35,588 nt of DNA, taken from NCBI GenBank assembly GCA_002746335.1, contig NVWW01000024.1, positions 4,658-40,245 of the forward strand, read 5' to 3'. This document shows, one piece after another, positions 3,195 through 12,093 of this stretch (positions are counted from its first letter, which is position 1; each line of letters starts with the position of its first letter). A program made the translations under genes and the position numbers. The notes beneath the pieces were generated by a model. That model made no database searches. It saw nothing but the letters and a program-made list of their open reading frames with translations, and had not been told where the DNA came from. The DNA comes from Flavobacteriales bacterium (GTDB lineage Bacteria; Bacteroidota; Bacteroidia; Flavobacteriales_H; GCA-2746335).

Positions 3195-3276
3195 CAGCTA
3201 AGAAAAAGAACAAGAAAATTTGGGCATAAAATAAAATTTCGACATCTATTTTAGCACGAAACAGGAGGTAAACACT

Positions 3277-3302
3277 AAAAAACAGGGTTTTCCCTGTTTT
3301 TT
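3277..3302 (+). terminator. Rho-independent terminator-like hairpin, no clear upstream gene
   Basis: An 11-bp perfect stem, AAAAAACAGGG (3277-3287) with CCCTGTTTTTT (3292-3302), loop TTTT. It has the U-tract and A-tract of a bidirectional terminator, but no gene ends just upstream on the plus strand, and the gene ending leftward starts far away at 2568. It may shield the nuclease gene from read-through or mark a lost gene. Confidence 0.7.
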
Positions 3303-3409
3303 ATTTCAACTATTTTGATGTCTTTTGGCATTAGTAAGATAAGTAAATAAAACCGGTTATAAGGGCTTAATATATAAGGTGTGTAAACGGCATATGCTCT
3401 TTATACAAA

Positions 3410-3424
3410 CGTTGGCTGTAATTA
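3410..3424 (+). repeat. Left border repeat of the nuclease gene
   Basis: CGTTGGCTGTAATTA, ten bases before the nuclease ATG. Twelve of 15 bases match 4911-4925, just after the same gene, in the same orientation and 1,501 bp away. The pair resembles the borders of a single-gene cassette; no classical attC core (GTTRRRY) is present. Confidence 0.5.
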
Positions 3425-3433
3425 GAAAAAAGA

Positions 3434-4882
3434 ATGAAACTGAATCAATTAGAACCCCAGAAGTTTTCTGAATATTTCAAGCTTAATCAGAATAATGAAT
3501 TCGATTTTGTTGACATCTATGCGTACCAAGATATTCCACTTTTCCTTGACCCGTTTGGAATTTCAGCTATGGGGACAAGATGGGCTAAAGAATGTGAAAG
3601 TCAAATCGCAACTTATTTTCAATATTTAATTGATTGCATAAACACAGGTGATAAAAGAACAACAACAAGGCTACTAAATGCTTTGCACGAAGTAAATGAG
3701 ATAGCTTTAGGTTATTCTTCAGGGGTGCCACAAGGACGTGGAATTGGAGGTAAACAAGCCCAGCAGATTCAAAGGTCATTTGAAACAAGTGAAGCTGCAA
3801 AAAGCGGAGACATAAAAGACATCGCTGACTGTGCTATTTTAATTCCCGGAATCAGTCGAGATAAAATTTCTGATATAACTGCCAATATTTTGAAAAGGAA
3901 ATTAGTAGAGTATACTCAGAGACAATGTGAAAAATATAATATTCCGACAGAAAAAGTAGCAATAAATAACGCATTTGACTATGATACTTTTCAGTTTACG
4001 AGTTACTTTTCCAAACTACCTGTTATAGATGGACACGCTAAAATATTATTACCTATAAGTTCGGTTCGTCAAGACCCAGAGCTGAGTAAAAACAAGTACT
4101 ATAGAAATTTCGTCTTGGAATTTCTTAAAGCGGAACATCAGCATGCTGGTGATGCCCTTTCAACTGTTCTCAGAAATGGTAGCGTTGTGGTTCGAATTAT
4201 GGACTTAAAAGAAAAGTATCCAATGAATGTTGATTTTCTCTATCAGTTTTCAAAGAGTCATCCTAAGGTGCTTGAAAAATATAAGTCTGAACTACGAAGA
4301 ACTGCCATTAAAAAAGGGAAAGCACAACTCAAAACTCAAAGAAAAATACTGAACTCTATAGAAAGAAGAGCCATAATGGAATCTATCAAAACTGGTCGTG
4401 ATGACGCAACGCGGTTTCATAAAATTGCCTACGATAATCTTATCCATATATTATCAGGTAGAGCCTCTAACCCTTTGATGGAAAAAGAAATAAATGAAGG
4501 GCGTAAAAGGATCGATATCATTTTTAACAACTCTGATAAAAAAGGATTCTTCCATTTACTTAATACAAAATATCATGTCAAATGCCCTAAAATAATTGTT
4601 GAATGTAAAAACTATGGTAAGGAAATTGGAAATCCAGAAGTAGACCAAATAAATGGAAGACTAAATGACAACAGGGGGCGATTTGGAATTATTGTTTGTC
4701 GGTCAATTGAAGATAAGCCTCGACTACTCTCAAGATGCAAAGACTTATTGAATGACAATAGAAACTATGTGGTTGTTTTGGAAGACAAAGACATCATTCA
4801 ACTTTTGGAATACCGAGATAAAATCCAGGAGCAAGAAATTGATGATTTTTTTGAGAGAAAAATAGACCAAATAATAATGTAA
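3434..4882 (+). CDS. Orphan PD-(D/E)XK restriction-endonuclease-like protein
   Basis: A 482-residue protein with ATG start after an A-rich leader. The C-terminal third has the order expected of a PD-(D/E)XK nuclease core: a glutamate-bearing helix (EKEINEGRKR, about 350-359), D361 in RIDIIF, E390-x-K392 in IIVECKNY, and a Mrr-like Q405 in VDQINGRL, then a strand GIIVCRS. Residues 1-300 are an unrecognised, mostly helical region with the marks DIPLFLDP (33-40) and a glycine-rich GVPQGRGIGG (97-106). No methyltransferase, specificity subunit or helicase gene is adjacent. The gene is visibly AT-richer than the housekeeping part and sits between imperfect direct repeats. DNA cleavage is inferred from motifs; a role in phage or plasmid defence is a guess from family habits. 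Confidence 0.75.
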   Translation: MKLNQLEPQKFSEYFKLNQNNEFDFVDIYAYQDIPLFLDPFGISAMGTRWAKECESQIATYFQYLIDCINTGDKRTTTRLLNALHEVNEIALGYSSGVPQGRGIGGKQAQQIQRSFETSEAAKSGDIKDIADCAILIPGISRDKISDITANILKRKLVEYTQRQCEKYNIPTEKVAINNAFDYDTFQFTSYFSKLPVIDGHAKILLPISSVRQDPELSKNKYYRNFVLEFLKAEHQHAGDALSTVLRNGSVVVRIMDLKEKYPMNVDFLYQFSKSHPKVLEKYKSELRRTAIKKGKAQLKTQRKILNSIERRAIMESIKTGRDDATRFHKIAYDNLIHILSGRASNPLMEKEINEGRKRIDIIFNNSDKKGFFHLLNTKYHVKCPKIIVECKNYGKEIGNPEVDQINGRLNDNRGRFGIIVCRSIEDKPRLLSRCKDLLNDNRNYVVVLEDKDIIQLLEYRDKIQEQEIDDFFERKIDQIIM

Positions 4883-4883
4883 A

Positions 4884-4918
4884 AACTACTGGCAACAAAT
4901 TGCAAAATGCCGTTAGTT
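4884..4918 (+). other. Imperfect hairpin after nuclease gene, attC-like in shape
   Basis: AACTA (4884-4888) pairs with TAGTT (4914-4918) and GGCA (4891-4894) with TGCC (4908-4911), separated by a 2x2 mismatch, around a 13-nt AT-rich loop. The shape, two short stems with a bulge right after a stop codon, recalls attC cassette sites, but the sequences do not fit the attC consensus. It might also be a weak terminator lacking a U-tract. Confidence 0.35.
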
Positions 4919-5029: not shown

Positions 5030-5890
5030 GTGAAAAACTTTCCTTTCATACTGCTTTTGCTTTTTGCTGACTTTGGTTATTCCCAAAACCTAATACCCAA
5101 TGGTGATTTTGAGCTGGGGCCGGATAGCACTTCGGTTGGTTGGGAATTATGGGAAGAGTTGGATAGCACTTGTTCTGGTGGTGCAGGACCATACGACACA
5201 ACAATTAAAGGCCCTGACTTCTGGGTGATTACGGTGCCTTCTCCTGATAGAGTAGTTGAATGGGATAGTTGTTTTATACCTAATATATTAGCTGCTCAAT
5301 CGGGTGCTGCTTATGTTCATTTTGGGGGGTATGAAGCCGGTAAGACAACGTTGCTTTCTCCTTTGGAAAAAGATTCTTTATATCGTTTAAGCTATTATGT
5401 TATGGTAGATTTAGCATGTCCTTTAGGCCCGCCATCCCGAATAACATTTAGGTTTAATGGGGGCGATTCTGTTGTTTCCCCTATGTTTTATAATTCTCAA
5501 AACTGGGAATATTATGATACGATATTTACAGCTTCCGCCACATCTACAGAAATTGAAATAATAGGAAGCTGGCTCGCACTTTCTTGTGCCGGAGTTGACA
5601 ACATTAAATTAGAAAAAACAACTTCTAATTCAGTTAAGAATTATCAGAAAAATCAACAAGTGAAGGTTTATCCAAACCCTTCTCATGGTATTGTTCAAAT
5701 TGAAATAGGCCATAATATGCTAAAAGATATTAAGGTATTTGATGCGGTTGGTGATTTTAAGAAAGTTGTGCAAAAGCATGCTGGGAGTTCAATACAATTA
5801 GATTTTTCTTCATATCAGGCAGGAGTATATTTTATTTACATTAAAACAAACCAAAGCAATGTCATTAAAAAAGTTTTGTTAATCAAATAA
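5030..5890 (+). CDS. Secreted protein with T9SS type A sorting domain
   Basis: A 286-residue protein with a GTG start; an ATG at 5005 is out of frame and stops quickly. Residues 1-18 form a signal peptide (KNFPFILLLLFADFGYSQ). Residues 20-195 look like a jelly-roll carbohydrate-binding-like domain: NLIPNGDFE opening, AYVHFGGYEAG, and a closing GVDNIKLEK. Six cysteines could form disulfides. Residues 212-286 are a T9SS C-terminal sorting domain (VYPNPSHGIVQIE, then GVYFIYIKTNQ and basic KKVLLIK), so it is expected to cross the outer membrane and be anchored or released. It lies 18 bp before the large adhesin gene, likely in one operon. Specific ligand unknown. Confidence 0.85.
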   Translation: MKNFPFILLLLFADFGYSQNLIPNGDFELGPDSTSVGWELWEELDSTCSGGAGPYDTTIKGPDFWVITVPSPDRVVEWDSCFIPNILAAQSGAAYVHFGGYEAGKTTLLSPLEKDSLYRLSYYVMVDLACPLGPPSRITFRFNGGDSVVSPMFYNSQNWEYYDTIFTASATSTEIEIIGSWLALSCAGVDNIKLEKTTSNSVKNYQKNQQVKVYPNPSHGIVQIEIGHNMLKDIKVFDAVGDFKKVVQKHAGSSIQLDFSSYQAGVYFIYIKTNQSNVIKKVLLIK

Positions 5891-5908
5891 CACTAAAATT
5901 TTATCATT

Positions 5909-6655
5909 ATGAAAACACAAATTATCAGAGGTATCATTGCTGCAACAGCAATTACCTTGCAGCCCGATTTCATTTTTGCCCAGTGGCAACAAAGCAATGG
6001 AAACCCCTATAAATTCGGGAGAACTAAAACGGATATAGCTGCAATAGGAATTGGTGCTTTTCCCAATGGTACTGCAAATCCTCCCCTTTCTGCTCTGCAT
6101 ATTAATACTAATCCACCTTTTCCACCCGCAACTGGTTTTTTCAGCCTAGGCGAAGTATTCCGCACTGTTGGCCCTTCTACCGAAACCAATGCCTGGCGCA
6201 TGCTTTCTGGCACAGGTACAGGCACCGAAAAGTTCGTTTTATTTAATCCCGCCAGCAGCGATAACGTCTTCCTCCGCTCCTCGGTGAGCGGAGCCAACAT
6301 GCAGTTCCAAACCACCCTCACCGTTTTTGGAAACCCTATTCCCCTTACGCGCATGACCATTACCGATGGTTTATTTGGCATGGTAGGCATCGGCAACGGC
6401 TTCACCAACCCCCAGTCGCAACTCCATATTAACGATGGCGATTTCCCTACCTACACCCAAATTACCAACACCAACACGGGTCCTAATGCCGATGACGGCT
6501 TCAGGGTAGGTATAGATGCCGATGGCGTGGCCGAGCTGCGCCAGCAGGAAAATTTTGGCTTCAACTTCTACACCCAAAATCCCAACACGCTGAAAATGAC
6601 CCTCACCGCAACAGGCGATCTCAACATCACCACTGCCAATAAGGGCACCAAATAG
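5909..6655 (+). CDS. N-terminal fragment of tail-fibre-like T9SS adhesin (frameshifted)
   Basis: 248 codons ending at TAG 6653-6655. Residues 1-24 are a signal peptide ending FAQ. The rest has the repeated lead of phage-tail-fibre-like proteins (GIGAFPNGTANPPLSALHIN, later GMVGIGNGFTNPQSQLHIN), and the same pattern continues in the next frame as GIGTSSPQSKLDI. The final residues read ITTANKGTK; inserting one base after 6646 would give ANKGYQIAGNYVLRHAG and run straight into the next frame. I therefore read it as the front part of a single gene of about 1,225 codons. If the shift is real, this fragment would be exported by Sec but lacks the sorting domain. Confidence 0.85.
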   Translation: MKTQIIRGIIAATAITLQPDFIFAQWQQSNGNPYKFGRTKTDIAAIGIGAFPNGTANPPLSALHINTNPPFPPATGFFSLGEVFRTVGPSTETNAWRMLSGTGTGTEKFVLFNPASSDNVFLRSSVSGANMQFQTTLTVFGNPIPLTRMTITDGLFGMVGIGNGFTNPQSQLHINDGDFPTYTQITNTNTGPNADDGFRVGIDADGVAELRQQENFGFNFYTQNPNTLKMTLTATGDLNITTANKGTK

Positions 6656-6666
6656 CTGGCAATTAC

Positions 6667-9582
6667 GTGCTGCGGCATGCTGGCACCCTCAGCAACATCT
6701 TTGTTGGTGTGAACGCTGGCGCTTCCAATAGCGGTATAGGTAACACCTTTGTGGGCTTCCGTGCGGGCATCGGGCCTTCATCCGGCAGGTTCAACACGTT
6801 TACCGGCTCCGAGTGTGGGTTTAACAATAACCTCGGTGAGTCAAATACCTTTTATGGTTATCAAGCGGGCGTGCTCAATAGTAGCGGCAGCCAAAATGTA
6901 TTTATCGGGGAGAATGCTGCACGTAATACCACCGGCAGCAACAACACTTTTGCGGGATTCAGAACAGGGTTCAACAACATAAGCGGTGATGCCAACACTT
7001 TTGTGGGCAGGCAGGCGGGCGGCAGTAACGAAACCGGCAGCCGCAATACCTTTGTAGGTGCAGACGCGCAAGCCACCGGAGTCGATGAAAAAACACTAAC
7101 TAATGCCACAGCCATAGGTAACAGGGCTACGGTTAAGCAAGACAATGCGTTGGTGCTTGGCGGTATCACCGGAGAAAACAATTACACTGGTTTAACTGTA
7201 AATGTGGGCATCGGCACACCAACCCCGCAAAACCGTTTGGAAGTGGTTAAAGGCACCATCGGCCCTACTTCCAGCGGCCTGCGGCTTACGGGGCTGGCTG
7301 GGGTAACAGGCGCAACGGGCATCCTCACCAATGGTGTGCTCAGCGTTGACCCCAACGGAGATGTTGTTTTGGTAGATGGCCCAGCAGGCCCCTCTGGTCC
7401 CGCCGGTGCTGATGGAGCAGATGGTCCCACCGGTGCTGATGGAGTAGATGGTCCCACCGGCCCTGCCGGCCCCGCTGGTTCTGCCGGAGCGCCAGGCCCA
7501 ACCGGCCCAGCAGGCTCCCCGGGTAGCGCACCGCTTGCAGGAATTACCGGTTCGGTGCAATTCAACGATGGCACCAACCAGCACGCCTCCGACCCAAACA
7601 ACTTCGTATGGAACAACACTACCAAGCACCTCGGCATCGGAACTTCGTCCCCTCAGTCCAAACTCGACATATTCCATAACAATAATGAAACCCCGCCATC
7701 AGGAACCCCTTTTACTTCTTTTGGCGCTGTGCCAATAGTTTTAAGAAATACAGACAATACAGACAACAATTTTTCTTTAATTGATTTTCAAAACGGCCTC
7801 TCTGGCTCTGGTATTGCCTGTTTTGGCATTCAACATGTCAGTCATTTGAATAATGAGTCAGATTTTGTTTGGAGAACAGGGGTTGGTTGTCCTAATGAAC
7901 GAATGCGGCTCACTTCTGATGGATGGCTGGGCATCGGCACCGCCCCCACCGCCCGGTTGCATGTGAAAGGAGACAATACACCAAGCAATTTTTCAGCAAA
8001 ATTTCAAAATAATAGTGGCGCTGACTTGTTAACTGTTAGAAATGATGGAAATATTGGTATCGGAACAAGTTCCCCTAACGCTCTTTTGCAAATAAGAAAA
8101 AACCAAAATGCGCCAACTTCTATGGAAGTTGCAAATAGTAATGGTGGAGCAAACGCATTTACTCAAATACGACTTGTAACTGATAATGCAAGCGTTGCTG
8201 CGCTATTTAGAAATTCATCAACAGCAACGTCTTACGGAGGGGCGAATTCTCTAAATTTAGGAACAGTATCTTCTGATGTTCTTTCGTTACTAACAGGAAA
8301 CGTTTCAAGAGTATTTATTACGGGAACTGGAAATGTAGGTATAGCACAATCTCTTCCAGGTGCACGGCTGGAAATAAAAGGAGTAGATGCCACAAACAGT
8401 AACTTCGGATTAATAGTGAGAGATGATGTAGGCACTAATAATTTAGTTGTTAGAAATGACGGAAAGGTTGGAATTGGCACAATTACTCCTAATGAGCTTT
8501 TATCTGTCAACAATCCAAGCGGTCATGTAAGCATTCAGCTTACCGATCTGGCCAGTAATGCAACGGCAAATGACGGCTTTACACTTAGTTTGTCTAATTC
8601 ATTTGTTGTGTTCAATAATCAAGAAGGAGGGGCATTTTACTTCAACTCGGGCAATGTGGCGGCAGGACAGCCCCTTATCAATCACATGGTTATCCAGCCA
8701 AATGGCAACGTAGGTATCGGGGGATCCCCTGCCTGTAAATTAGACGTTAATGGCGGAATATGTGGTTATTCATCACTTACCCCGTCAGACCAAAGCATAA
8801 AGAAAAACATACAGGGGTTGGATAATTCACTCGAAAAAATACAGCAGCTCATTGGTATTTCTTTTGAATGGGATTTGGATACCTTGCCTGATTCATTAAT
8901 CATGGCAGGCACGCAAATCGGGTTTATTGCCCAGCAAGTGGATTCGGTGATTCCCGAAGTAGTACATGAAGATACCGCTACCGGTCTTTTGTCAGTTGAT
9001 TACAGCAGCATCATTCCTTATATGGTAGAAGCCATCAAAGAACAGCAACAAATGATAGACTCGTTGAAGCAAAGACAGGCAGCTACGGAAGTGGCTATTT
9101 TCCAATGCTGTGCAACAAGTGGCGACACAACCTCGGCCATTTGCCACAAAGGAAATACCATGTACCTTTCGGGTAACGCTTTGCAGGCGCATTTGAACCA
9201 CGGTGATAGTTTAGGGCCGTGCAGTAATGCAAGGATGAGCAACGGGAATAGTATTGGAAGTGACAGGCCATTTGGAGATGGGCAGTTTAGCAGCCAAATC
9301 GTAGAATTAAGGGATGCCAAAGCCATCATTCTAAACCAGAACGACCCCAACCCCTTTAAAGAAAACACCACTATTTCTTATTTCATCCCTGAAGAAACAG
9401 GCCAAGCCGTCATCATGTTTTATGATAATTTAGGCCGCATCGTCAAAGAAATACAAGTGGAAGATAAAGGATTTAGTGAATTAAAGGTTTATGCCTCTGA
9501 TTTGAGCAACGGCATTTACACTTATTCGCTGGTTGCTGACGGTAAGATCATTGACAGCAAGAAGATGGTGAAGTCGGAATAA
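6667..9582 (+). CDS. Main part of tail-fibre/collagen/S74 adhesin with T9SS domain
   Basis: 971 residues from a GTG; the coding frame is open back to about 6646, and this GTG is likely internal to the original gene. Order of parts: residues 10-150, left-handed-helix-like repeats (NTFVGFRAG, NVFIGENAA, NTFAGFRTG), as in YadA-like heads and phage fibres; 170-235, GIGTPTPQNRLEV strands; 239-290, collagen-like Gly-X-Y repeats; 320-700, many GIGTSSP-KLDI strands; 707-800, a peptidase S74 intramolecular chaperone (SDQSIKKNIQGL, IGFIAQQV, PYMVEAIKEQQ); 889-971, a T9SS sorting domain (LNQNDPNPF to IDSKKMVKSE). Likely a trimeric surface fibre. S74 domains usually cut themselves off; here the T9SS domain lies downstream of S74, so cleavage would detach the anchor. 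Confidence 0.88.
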   Translation: MLRHAGTLSNIFVGVNAGASNSGIGNTFVGFRAGIGPSSGRFNTFTGSECGFNNNLGESNTFYGYQAGVLNSSGSQNVFIGENAARNTTGSNNTFAGFRTGFNNISGDANTFVGRQAGGSNETGSRNTFVGADAQATGVDEKTLTNATAIGNRATVKQDNALVLGGITGENNYTGLTVNVGIGTPTPQNRLEVVKGTIGPTSSGLRLTGLAGVTGATGILTNGVLSVDPNGDVVLVDGPAGPSGPAGADGADGPTGADGVDGPTGPAGPAGSAGAPGPTGPAGSPGSAPLAGITGSVQFNDGTNQHASDPNNFVWNNTTKHLGIGTSSPQSKLDIFHNNNETPPSGTPFTSFGAVPIVLRNTDNTDNNFSLIDFQNGLSGSGIACFGIQHVSHLNNESDFVWRTGVGCPNERMRLTSDGWLGIGTAPTARLHVKGDNTPSNFSAKFQNNSGADLLTVRNDGNIGIGTSSPNALLQIRKNQNAPTSMEVANSNGGANAFTQIRLVTDNASVAALFRNSSTATSYGGANSLNLGTVSSDVLSLLTGNVSRVFITGTGNVGIAQSLPGARLEIKGVDATNSNFGLIVRDDVGTNNLVVRNDGKVGIGTITPNELLSVNNPSGHVSIQLTDLASNATANDGFTLSLSNSFVVFNNQEGGAFYFNSGNVAAGQPLINHMVIQPNGNVGIGGSPACKLDVNGGICGYSSLTPSDQSIKKNIQGLDNSLEKIQQLIGISFEWDLDTLPDSLIMAGTQIGFIAQQVDSVIPEVVHEDTATGLLSVDYSSIIPYMVEAIKEQQQMIDSLKQRQAATEVAIFQCCATSGDTTSAICHKGNTMYLSGNALQAHLNHGDSLGPCSNARMSNGNSIGSDRPFGDGQFSSQIVELRDAKAIILNQNDPNPFKENTTISYFIPEETGQAVIMFYDNLGRIVKEIQVEDKGFSELKVYASDLSNGIYTYSLVADGKIIDSKKMVKSE
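7405..7458 (+). repeat. 27-bp tandem duplication in collagen-like segment
   Basis: Two 27-bp units (7405-7431, 7432-7458), 26 of 27 identical, each encoding nine residues of the Gly-Ala-Asp-Gly type. Recent duplication; collagen-like tracts change length easily in this way. Confidence 0.85.
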
Positions 9583-10469: not shown

Positions 10470-10886
10470 TTAGCCATTGTTTTTCGTTTCATATTTTGGA
10501 CGATATTTTTCAGGATTTTCTATCATGTGGTTTAGCATTCGCCCTATTTCTTCCGACTTGTTGCGAAGTTCTCTGTTTTCTTCCTGTGAGATGTATTCGC
10601 AAGCCTCGGCAAAATCAAGTGAAATCTGTGTTTCTGTATTCTCCATATCTGCATCGCTCATTTTACTCGAAAAATGTTTTGGATATTGTCGTTTCCTATA
10701 TCCCTCTCCAATTCCTCTGCAAATTGAACGCGAAGACCTTCTAAGTTGGTCAGTCAGTGCATACTTCTCTTCTGGCGGAAACTTTTTGGTGATTTCAAAA
10801 ACCTCCATTGCCAATACAAATGCCTTTTTGTAAACAGTTAAATCCCGAAAACTACCTGCCACAATTGTTGATTTATTACTTGCCAA
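10470..10886 (-). CDS. Four-helix-bundle protein, S23 (rRNA intervening-sequence) family
   Basis: 138 residues from a TTG at 10886, or 130 from a GTG at 10862; no ATG is in frame. SFRDLTVYKKAFVLAMEVF, FPPEEKYALTDQLRRSSRSI and the ETQISLDFAEACEYIS helix are hallmarks of the S23/four-helix-bundle family, first known from 23S rRNA intervening sequences and related in fold to Avd of diversity-generating retroelements. The molecular role is unknown. The TTG start lies inside the flanking repeat (TTGGCAAGT), so the repeat may supply the start region; the GTG is the alternative. It sits between the GT2 and GNAT genes with repeats on both sides, as if inserted into their operon. Confidence 0.88.
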   Translation of the reverse strand: MASNKSTIVAGSFRDLTVYKKAFVLAMEVFEITKKFPPEEKYALTDQLRRSSRSICRGIGEGYRKRQYPKHFSSKMSDADMENTETQISLDFAEACEYISQEENRELRNKSEEIGRMLNHMIENPEKYRPKYETKNNG

Positions 10887-11169
10887 CTGCTTTTTTGCTC
10901 ATTGCAACTGCCTTTTACTGCTTGCCAACTGCTTTTTTGCTCATTGCCAACTGCCTTTTTGCTCATTGCCAACTTCCTTTTACTGCTTGCCAACTGCTTT
11001 TTCTGCTCATTGCCAACTTCCTTTTACTGCTTGCCAACTGCTTTTTGCTCATTGCAACTGCTTTTTCTGCTCATTGCCAACTGCCTTTTACTACTTGCCA
11101 ACTGCTTTTTTGCTCATTGCCAACTGCCTTTTACTACTTGCCAACTGCTTTTTTGCTCATTGCCAACTA
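10879..11169. repeat. Tandem array of about 14 units of 20-23 bp (42-bp dimers)
   Basis: Units begin CTTGCCAACTGC or ATTGCCAACTGC and alternate tails ending in TTTGCTC or TTTTACTG. Counted: six ATTGCCAAC, six CTTGCCAAC and two ATTGCAAC cores. The array fills the whole gap between the S23 gene and the GT2 gene stop at 11179. Because the units are near multiples of three, several long open frames run through it; these are artefacts. Unit variation shows it is not a recent perfect expansion. Confidence 0.9.
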
Positions 11170-11178
11170 TCTTTCCCC

Positions 11179-12093
11179 TCAAATTTTTTCTTTAACCGAA
11201 TACTGCGGGCTAGCGTTCATCATCAGGTAAAGCCGCCTTAAATAATCGCCTATCACTCCAATGCTAAATAGAATAAAGCTGGAGGAAAACATAACGCTCA
11301 CGATAAGCGCTGTAAACCCGTCCACTTCTGCTTTTAACATCATTTTTTTAATAATGAAATTAAGGCCGATTAAAAATGAAATTACCGAGAAGATAAACCC
11401 ACCCCAGGTCATCATTCGTATAGGCGTGGCTGAGTAACCGATAATAATATCGTGGCTGAAAACAAACAAGGATGGAAATGAATAACGCGATTTTTTACGC
11501 TTTCCTTTTGACCATTGCACCTCCGCGAAGGCCACATTGGTGGTGTACCAGTAAATCATCTCTTCAAGATAAACGAAGCGGGTTTCGTTTTGTGCAAGTG
11601 ATTGCGCCAAATCCTTTGTGAGTAGTCGAAAAGAAGAACCATCGCCTTTTCCGGTATTGATATTTTTTGCTCCCGCTTTCATCACTTTGCTGCCCGCTTC
11701 TCTCAGCAGCGATTTTCTTTGGCTTGAGCTGATGCCATAGACTATATCTGCATTGGTTTCTTTTTGCTTTTCAATCAATTTTGGAATTTCTTCGGGAAGA
11801 TGCTGTAGGTCATCATCCATCGAAATGACCTGGTTGCCTGTGGCGTTGGCAAAACCGCATACCGTTGCGTTGTGTTGCCCGAAATTCTTAGCCAGTCGGA
11901 TTCCGGTTACATTTTCGGGGTTTTGTTTTTTTATTTTTTTGATTGTTTCCCAACTTTGATCCTCACTTTGGTCATCGACAAAAATGGCTTCAAAAGTTTC
12001 ATTCCGGCTTTCAAAAACGGTCTTTATTCTGGAAAATAATTCTTCCAAACAAAAAGATCCATTATAAACAGGGATGACAATGGAATAGTTCAT
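11179..12093 (-). CDS. Glycosyltransferase family 2, DPM1/GtrB-like
   Basis: 304 residues from ATG 12093. N-terminal GT-A domain with SIVIPVYNG (4-12), FVDDQSEDQSW (38-48) and the metal-binding DDD at 93-95 (SMDDDLQHLP), then two C-terminal membrane helices (about 230-285). This layout fits polyprenyl-phosphate sugar transferases (dolichyl-phosphate mannose synthase, GtrB, ArnC), which load a sugar from a nucleotide onto the lipid carrier at the inner membrane face. It is 51 bp downstream of the SDR gene in a leftward run with ketosynthases and ACP, suggesting a glycolipid or O-antigen modification. Sugar donor unknown. Confidence 0.88.
   Translation of the reverse strand: MNYSIVIPVYNGSFCLEELFSRIKTVFESRNETFEAIFVDDQSEDQSWETIKKIKKQNPENVTGIRLAKNFGQHNATVCGFANATGNQVISMDDDLQHLPEEIPKLIEKQKETNADIVYGISSSQRKSLLREAGSKVMKAGAKNINTGKGDGSSFRLLTKDLAQSLAQNETRFVYLEEMIYWYTTNVAFAEVQWSKGKRKKSRYSFPSLFVFSHDIIIGYSATPIRMMTWGGFIFSVISFLIGLNFIIKKMMLKAEVDGFTALIVSVMFSSSFILFSIGVIGDYLRRLYLMMNASPQYSVKEKI

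Follow-up and report, generated by a model that had tools for sequence, protein, structure and literature searches.

A solitary PDC-M36A relative with a Mrr-like PD-(D/E)XK domain: a candidate single-gene defence nuclease in a probable integron cassette of a Flavobacteriales bacterium

The PDC entries of PADLOC are unpublished candidate systems (PMC11811056, PMC12988326), and two such candidates, other than the one considered here, were inactive when tested (PMC12409345). PDC-M36, which comprises PDC-M36A and PDC-M36B, was not found by name in the literature searched, and the family has been known so far solely as an unpublished profile. Other points of comparison are provided by Mrr and other solitary type IV enzymes (PF04471), and by integrons, which are gene-collecting platforms. 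Anti-phage genes have been described in the cassettes of Vibrio chromosomal integrons and of mobile integrons, according to works cited in PMC12444791 and PMC12753305. We analysed a 35,588-nucleotide stretch of DNA from a Flavobacteriales bacterium (hereafter referred to as the window), which carries a gene (3434..4882, + strand) for a protein with an N-terminal domain (N-domain) and a Mrr-like PD-(D/E)XK domain, identified from its ORF, Pfam and PADLOC profile matches and relatives as a solo relative of PDC-M36A. On the sequence evidence set out below, it is fairly likely to encode a single-gene defence nuclease directed against phages or other incoming mobile DNA.

The ORF is intact, begins with an ATG and encodes 482 amino acids; it can be considered a real gene because relatives of its product, at 61–77% identity, were found at 11 further loci in Bacteroidota. 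Its GC content is 34.4%, versus 41.6% for the whole window. The PDC-M36A profile matched the protein over residues 10–470 (E = 2.5e-48), thus covering both domains. The original prediction had presented the protein as an orphan and as a candidate for something undescribed, which was not borne out, because PADLOC-DB already includes the family as the candidate PDC-M36A. Nevertheless, the window protein scored 163 bits with this profile, versus 826 bits for a canonical member (L030), and it is only about 25% identical to the canonical PDC-M36A proteins. In the canonical branch (L013, L014, L023, L024, L026 and L030), two small paralogous PDC-M36B genes lie directly 3′ of PDC-M36A, a pair seen in every canonical locus whose downstream DNA was covered and identified with PADLOC profiles in L013 and L014, and with a custom-built HMM in the other four. 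The PDC-M36B paralogues have a conserved (S/G)KK...K core in common. A search of the window and of L002–L012 with the PDC-M36B HMM gave no match, in agreement with the earlier description of a single gene without a partner. A tree built from 36 N-domains placed the PDC-M36B-bearing branch in one clade (support values of 100/100) and the window protein in a separate clade of ten members (100/99), throughout which the predicted partner is absent. The family is therefore an already flagged candidate, and the window clade appears, from these comparisons, to be a relative without PDC-M36B that is distinct from the canonical branch. Several family members (L007, L012, L036/L037 and L043) are broken by truncation or frameshift, suggesting turnover.

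The C-terminal domain (residues 315–482; 4376..4879, + strand) was delimited from Pfam, Foldseek and a Paenibacillus homologue. A PD-(D/E)XK core had been predicted from a pattern of acidic, lysine and glutamine residues, the coordinates and numbering of which proved correct (D361 in RKRIDIIF, E390-C-K392 and Q405). The catalytic positions D361, E390 and K392 (4514-4516, 4601-4603 and 4607-4609, respectively; span 4514..4609, + strand) are invariant in two alignments, and Q405 (4646-4648, + strand) is likewise invariant; all four residues were retained in an alignment of 11 sequences, the most distant members of which are 23–26% identical, and the catalytic residues were unchanged across relatives spanning 23–77% identity. 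Pfam PF04471 (Mrr_cat) matched residues 373–423 with 23.1 bits, against a gathering score of 21 (E = 8e-5), in an alignment of just 39 profile positions. Foldseek comparison of an AF2 model of the whole protein (pLDDT 75.9) with the PDB placed the nucleases FokI, MspJI and Cap4, together with RPB5 chains, among the top matches, all of them weak (best E = 0.011) yet consistent with such a fold. The invariant D, E-x-K and Q, the Mrr_cat score above the gathering score and the weak nuclease matches together uphold the assignment to the PD-(D/E)XK fold of the Mrr_cat type. Searches of PDB sequences with the single protein, a family-alignment profile and an N-domain profile yielded no meaningful match, and a search of NCBIfam gave chance matches only. 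The C-terminal domain is exchangeable, as it recurs with 43% identity over 168 amino acids in a Paenibacillus plasmid protein that has a dissimilar N-terminus.

The window protein shares with Mrr and other solitary type IV enzymes its Mrr_cat-type C-terminal core and the absence of a methyltransferase: inspection of the gene list confirmed that neither a methyltransferase nor a helicase adjoins the gene. It might accordingly be a modification-dependent, Mrr-type restriction enzyme, in which modified bases would be bound by the N-domain and the DNA cut nearby by the C-terminal domain. MspJI, which appeared among the Foldseek matches, is a modification-dependent enzyme. We nonetheless consider this explanation unlikely: the match to MspJI is weak (E = 0.013), the N-terminus differs from those of the type IV enzymes in matching no Pfam family and, in Foldseek, no base-reading fold, and it is marked instead by invariant acidic residues. 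Furthermore, the stand-alone N-domains encoded by plasmids, described below, would be readers without a cutter.

The N-domain (residues 1–295; 3434..4318, + strand) could not be placed by the first reading of the sequence, and the same outcome was obtained here: no Pfam family was matched in the profile search, and Foldseek comparison of the N-domain model (pLDDT 80.9, pTM 0.79) with the PDB gave a best E value of 1.4, which was taken as noise. It had also been described as a helical N-terminus of 300 residues; the model is mainly helical, but not purely so, as it includes a beta hairpin at residues 173–195 and further short strands. The two motifs put forward as its marks are genuinely conserved. 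In DIPLFLDP (residues 33–40; 3530..3553, + strand), D33 and D39 are invariant in the family, and the GVPQGRGIGG loop (residues 97–106; 3722..3751, + strand), which has low confidence in the model, contains the conserved G105 and the invariant G101. The alignments also revealed an invariant E86 (3689..3691, + strand) and a DKISD sequence (residues 143–147; 3860..3874, + strand), of which D143, S146 and D147 begin a long helix in the model. Across 14 N-domains from the group fused to Mrr-like domains and the stand-alone group, the invariant residues were D33, D39, E86, G93, G101, D143, D147, T161 and P207; with the addition of a group bearing a second type of C-terminus, D33, D39, E86, D143, S146 and D147 were invariant. 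The presence of D33, D39, E86, D143 and D147 in a mostly helical domain suggests a metal- or nucleotide-binding site, or an active site, and the conserved positions provide targets for mutation in a domain without a structural match.

Three combinations of the N-domain were found. The first is that of the window protein, with a Mrr-like C-terminus. In the second, the C-terminus has the sequence GRGPxD...VEFKLA...Q (L021, L031–L035 and L038–L042), in which a PD-(D/E)XK-like D, E-x-K and Q pattern can be read from the alignment only, and which matched no Pfam family; these proteins occur in Bacteroidota genomes, on plasmids of Rhizobiales, Roseomonas and others, and on contigs from viral collections. 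In the third, the N-domain stands alone as a protein of about 300 amino acids encoded by small plasmids of Acinetobacter, Bacillus, Lacticaseibacillus and Listeria, and by plasmids of Rhodococcus; one of these plasmid-borne genes adjoins a restriction-modification pair. HHalign comparison of the Mrr-like-fused group with the second-C-terminus group aligned only residues 10–227 (probability 99.5, E = 2e-23), indicating that the N-domains are homologous over this region, whereas the C-termini of the two groups did not align. These alignments indicate that the N-domain is a module, and the analysis as a whole divides the family into four architectures. The modular nature of the family, the absent PDC-M36B partner and the integron setting described below are additions to the original prediction.

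The N-domain could itself be the effector, an enzyme with a fold of its own, with the nuclease domain as an accessory for DNA binding or nicking. All six invariant residues (D, D, E, D, S and D) are retained in the stand-alone proteins, and different branches carry different C-termini, as such a reading would imply. However, the catalytic residues of the nuclease are kept just as strictly, and no structure match identified the chemistry involved, making this a doubtful alternative. A broader proposal, possible but tentative, takes the N-domain for an enzyme of a novel fold in which D33, D39, E86, D143 and D147 form an acidic active site. The domain would serve by itself as a defence gene on plasmids, would have become joined to PD-(D/E)XK nucleases of two kinds, and would be spread as a cassette by chromosomal integrons of Bacteroidota. 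The confidences attached to these explanations overlap and need not sum to one, as the type IV and N-domain-effector explanations are sub-cases of the main one, a single-gene defence nuclease.

The distribution of the gene is patchy. Among the 40 nearest genomes, it is present only in its own, and the N-domain was found in 10 of 396 Bacteroidota. No match was obtained in 50,697 phage records with the window protein, or in phage records with second-C-terminus, stand-alone and PDC-M36B-linked proteins as queries; viral scans with the stand-alone N-domains and the close-homologue alignment were also negative. The neighbours of the relatives were identified by PADLOC and Pfam searches of selected genes, the remaining neighbour lists being judged by eye. 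Defence genes were found beside homologues in this survey, which is purely descriptive: a type I methyltransferase (L002), AbiH (L003), a type IIG restriction enzyme with a methyltransferase (L004), a PLD-SNF2 helicase of the DpdE/DrmD type (L005, with the same block in L012) and LmuA/LmuB of Lamassu (L011). None was noticed near L008, L009 or L010, for which the lists were read by eye. IrrE-type peptidases adjoin the family members of L002 and L007, and HTH and/or ImmA/IrrE-type genes, possibly regulators, lie at or near the members of L016, L017, L002 and L007. From ORF reading only, with no profile applied, L006 resembles an integrative conjugative element and L042/L043 a prophage tail region, and L039 looks like a satellite in which an integrase adjoins the gene.

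Many relatives lie on plasmids, adjoining replication and mobilisation genes, and UmuC/UmuD or polymerase IV genes are close to the family member on three of these plasmids (L013, L014 and L015). Both features would be compatible with a role in the upkeep of plasmids or mobile elements, in competition between elements, or in DNA repair, rather than in defence against phages. Such a role is improbable in our view, because the chromosomal homologues adjoin several unrelated kinds of defence system.

The region upstream from the window gene resembles the leader of an integron. An attI-like leader (3249..3433, + strand) shares about 80% identity, over some 160 bp, with the leaders at two other places in the genome (158 bp and E = 6e-34 for one of them). 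One of these leaders lies ahead of a gene for a 565-aa HEC-05/GmrSD_N protein (L082:5525-7222, − strand; 657 bits), and the other separates an AbiEi/AbiEii pair from the genes that follow. The leader contains a site core, TTATACAAACGTTGGCT (3401..3417, + strand), with a crossover-type ACG^TT at about position 3411, and the window gene starts 17 bp past the attI-like sequence. A pattern search with the 17-base core TTATACA(A/T)ACGTTRGSC identified six more candidate copies in the genome, at C58, C86, C100, C122, C147 and C12 (L075, L076, L081, L082, L077 and L079, respectively). Five copies are strong (0–1 mismatch); that at C12, with two mismatches, rests mainly on the surrounding alignment, as the reversed control pattern likewise gives six matches with two or fewer mismatches. 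The window, searched with up to three mismatches, lacks the exact palindrome that the other attI-like sites have, and its site is, on this comparison, a diverged copy. At four copies, the site is preceded in the alignment by sequence that appears to be a tyrosine recombinase gene truncated to its 3′ end, and the fragment at C147 matched the integron integrase profile TIGR02249 (66 bits). All six further sites have a gene in the same orientation downstream, usually within about 10–35 bp; the called gene start at C122 is about 170 bp from the site, and the first gene after the site at C147 is interrupted. C86 and C147 resemble short cassette arrays.

Past the stop codon of the window gene, there is a weak attC-like sequence, ACTACTGGCAAC ... 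GTTAGTT (4885..4918, + strand), the left core of which is complementary to the leader scar at 9 of 12 bases (shuffle p = 0.05). At five other tested sites, an attC-like core lies at the end of the gene or gene pair downstream, with 9–12 of 12 bases complementary to the scar (combined p = 8e-9). Pairing with the scar was also detected for the homologue L009 (9/10, p = 0.002) and, more weakly, for L003 (p = 0.01), the remaining homologues giving no clear pairing. All these p-values are exploratory, as the test was widened once, after a version with a fixed post-stop window had failed at C86 and C100. An attI-type site is present upstream in the orientation of the window gene, which is probably an integron cassette, because the attI-like leader recurs in the genome and attC-like cores complementary to the scar are found at the five other sites; the case is weaker on the 3′ side. 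Like the defence cassettes of Vibrio and mobile integrons, the window gene has an attI-like site ahead and, less surely, an attC-like core behind, and HEC-05 is among the other cassettes of the genome. Unlike them, it belongs to Bacteroidota, and its genome has sites lying behind truncated recombinase 3′ ends; no full-length integron integrase exceeded the cutoff in the 97% complete assembly, which yielded only C-terminal TIGR02249 fragments (62–66 bits) beside ordinary-scoring recombinases. These results provide new evidence for scattered integron platforms with candidate defence cassettes in a Bacteroidota genome, extending a theme reported mostly for Vibrio.

A defensive role for the window protein is supported by the invariant nuclease residues, the Mrr_cat match, the Foldseek matches to PD-(D/E)XK nucleases and the full-length PDC-M36A match, and also by the defence genes adjoining close homologues, the patchy occurrence and the low GC content of the gene. 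Further support comes from the stand-alone N-domains on small plasmids, one beside a restriction-modification pair, and from the recurrence of the same leader, once preceding HEC-05 and once separating AbiE from another cassette. It is weakened by the inactivity of the two other PDC candidates and the lack of matches in the phage records; moreover, no defence gene was recognised beside the window gene itself, and none was noticed by eye near L008–L010. The N-domain would most likely be a sensor, a switch or a second enzyme, detecting a signal of infection or processing a small molecule or a DNA end. Its action would then license the C-terminal domain for DNA cutting, either of the invader, in a restriction-like manner, or of all the DNA in the cell, in an abortive response. 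The protein would work without the PDC-M36B helper proteins of the canonical branch, and its gene would travel, probably as the first cassette of a chromosomal integron. As a compact one-gene candidate system, it can be cloned directly.

The window gene is flanked by housekeeping and secreted-protein genes. An operon with the downstream secreted-protein genes (5030-9582) was considered and rejected, as their sorting-domain, collagen-like and S74-chaperone products had no defence matches. One of these genes (6667-9582, + strand) encodes a 971-aa protein that combines collagen-like repeats and an S74 chaperone domain with a sorting tail for secretion. Further downstream, a gene on the opposite strand (10470-10886, − strand) encodes a bAvd-like/23S rRNA intervening-sequence protein, and is adjoined by low-complexity repeats at about 10900-11200.
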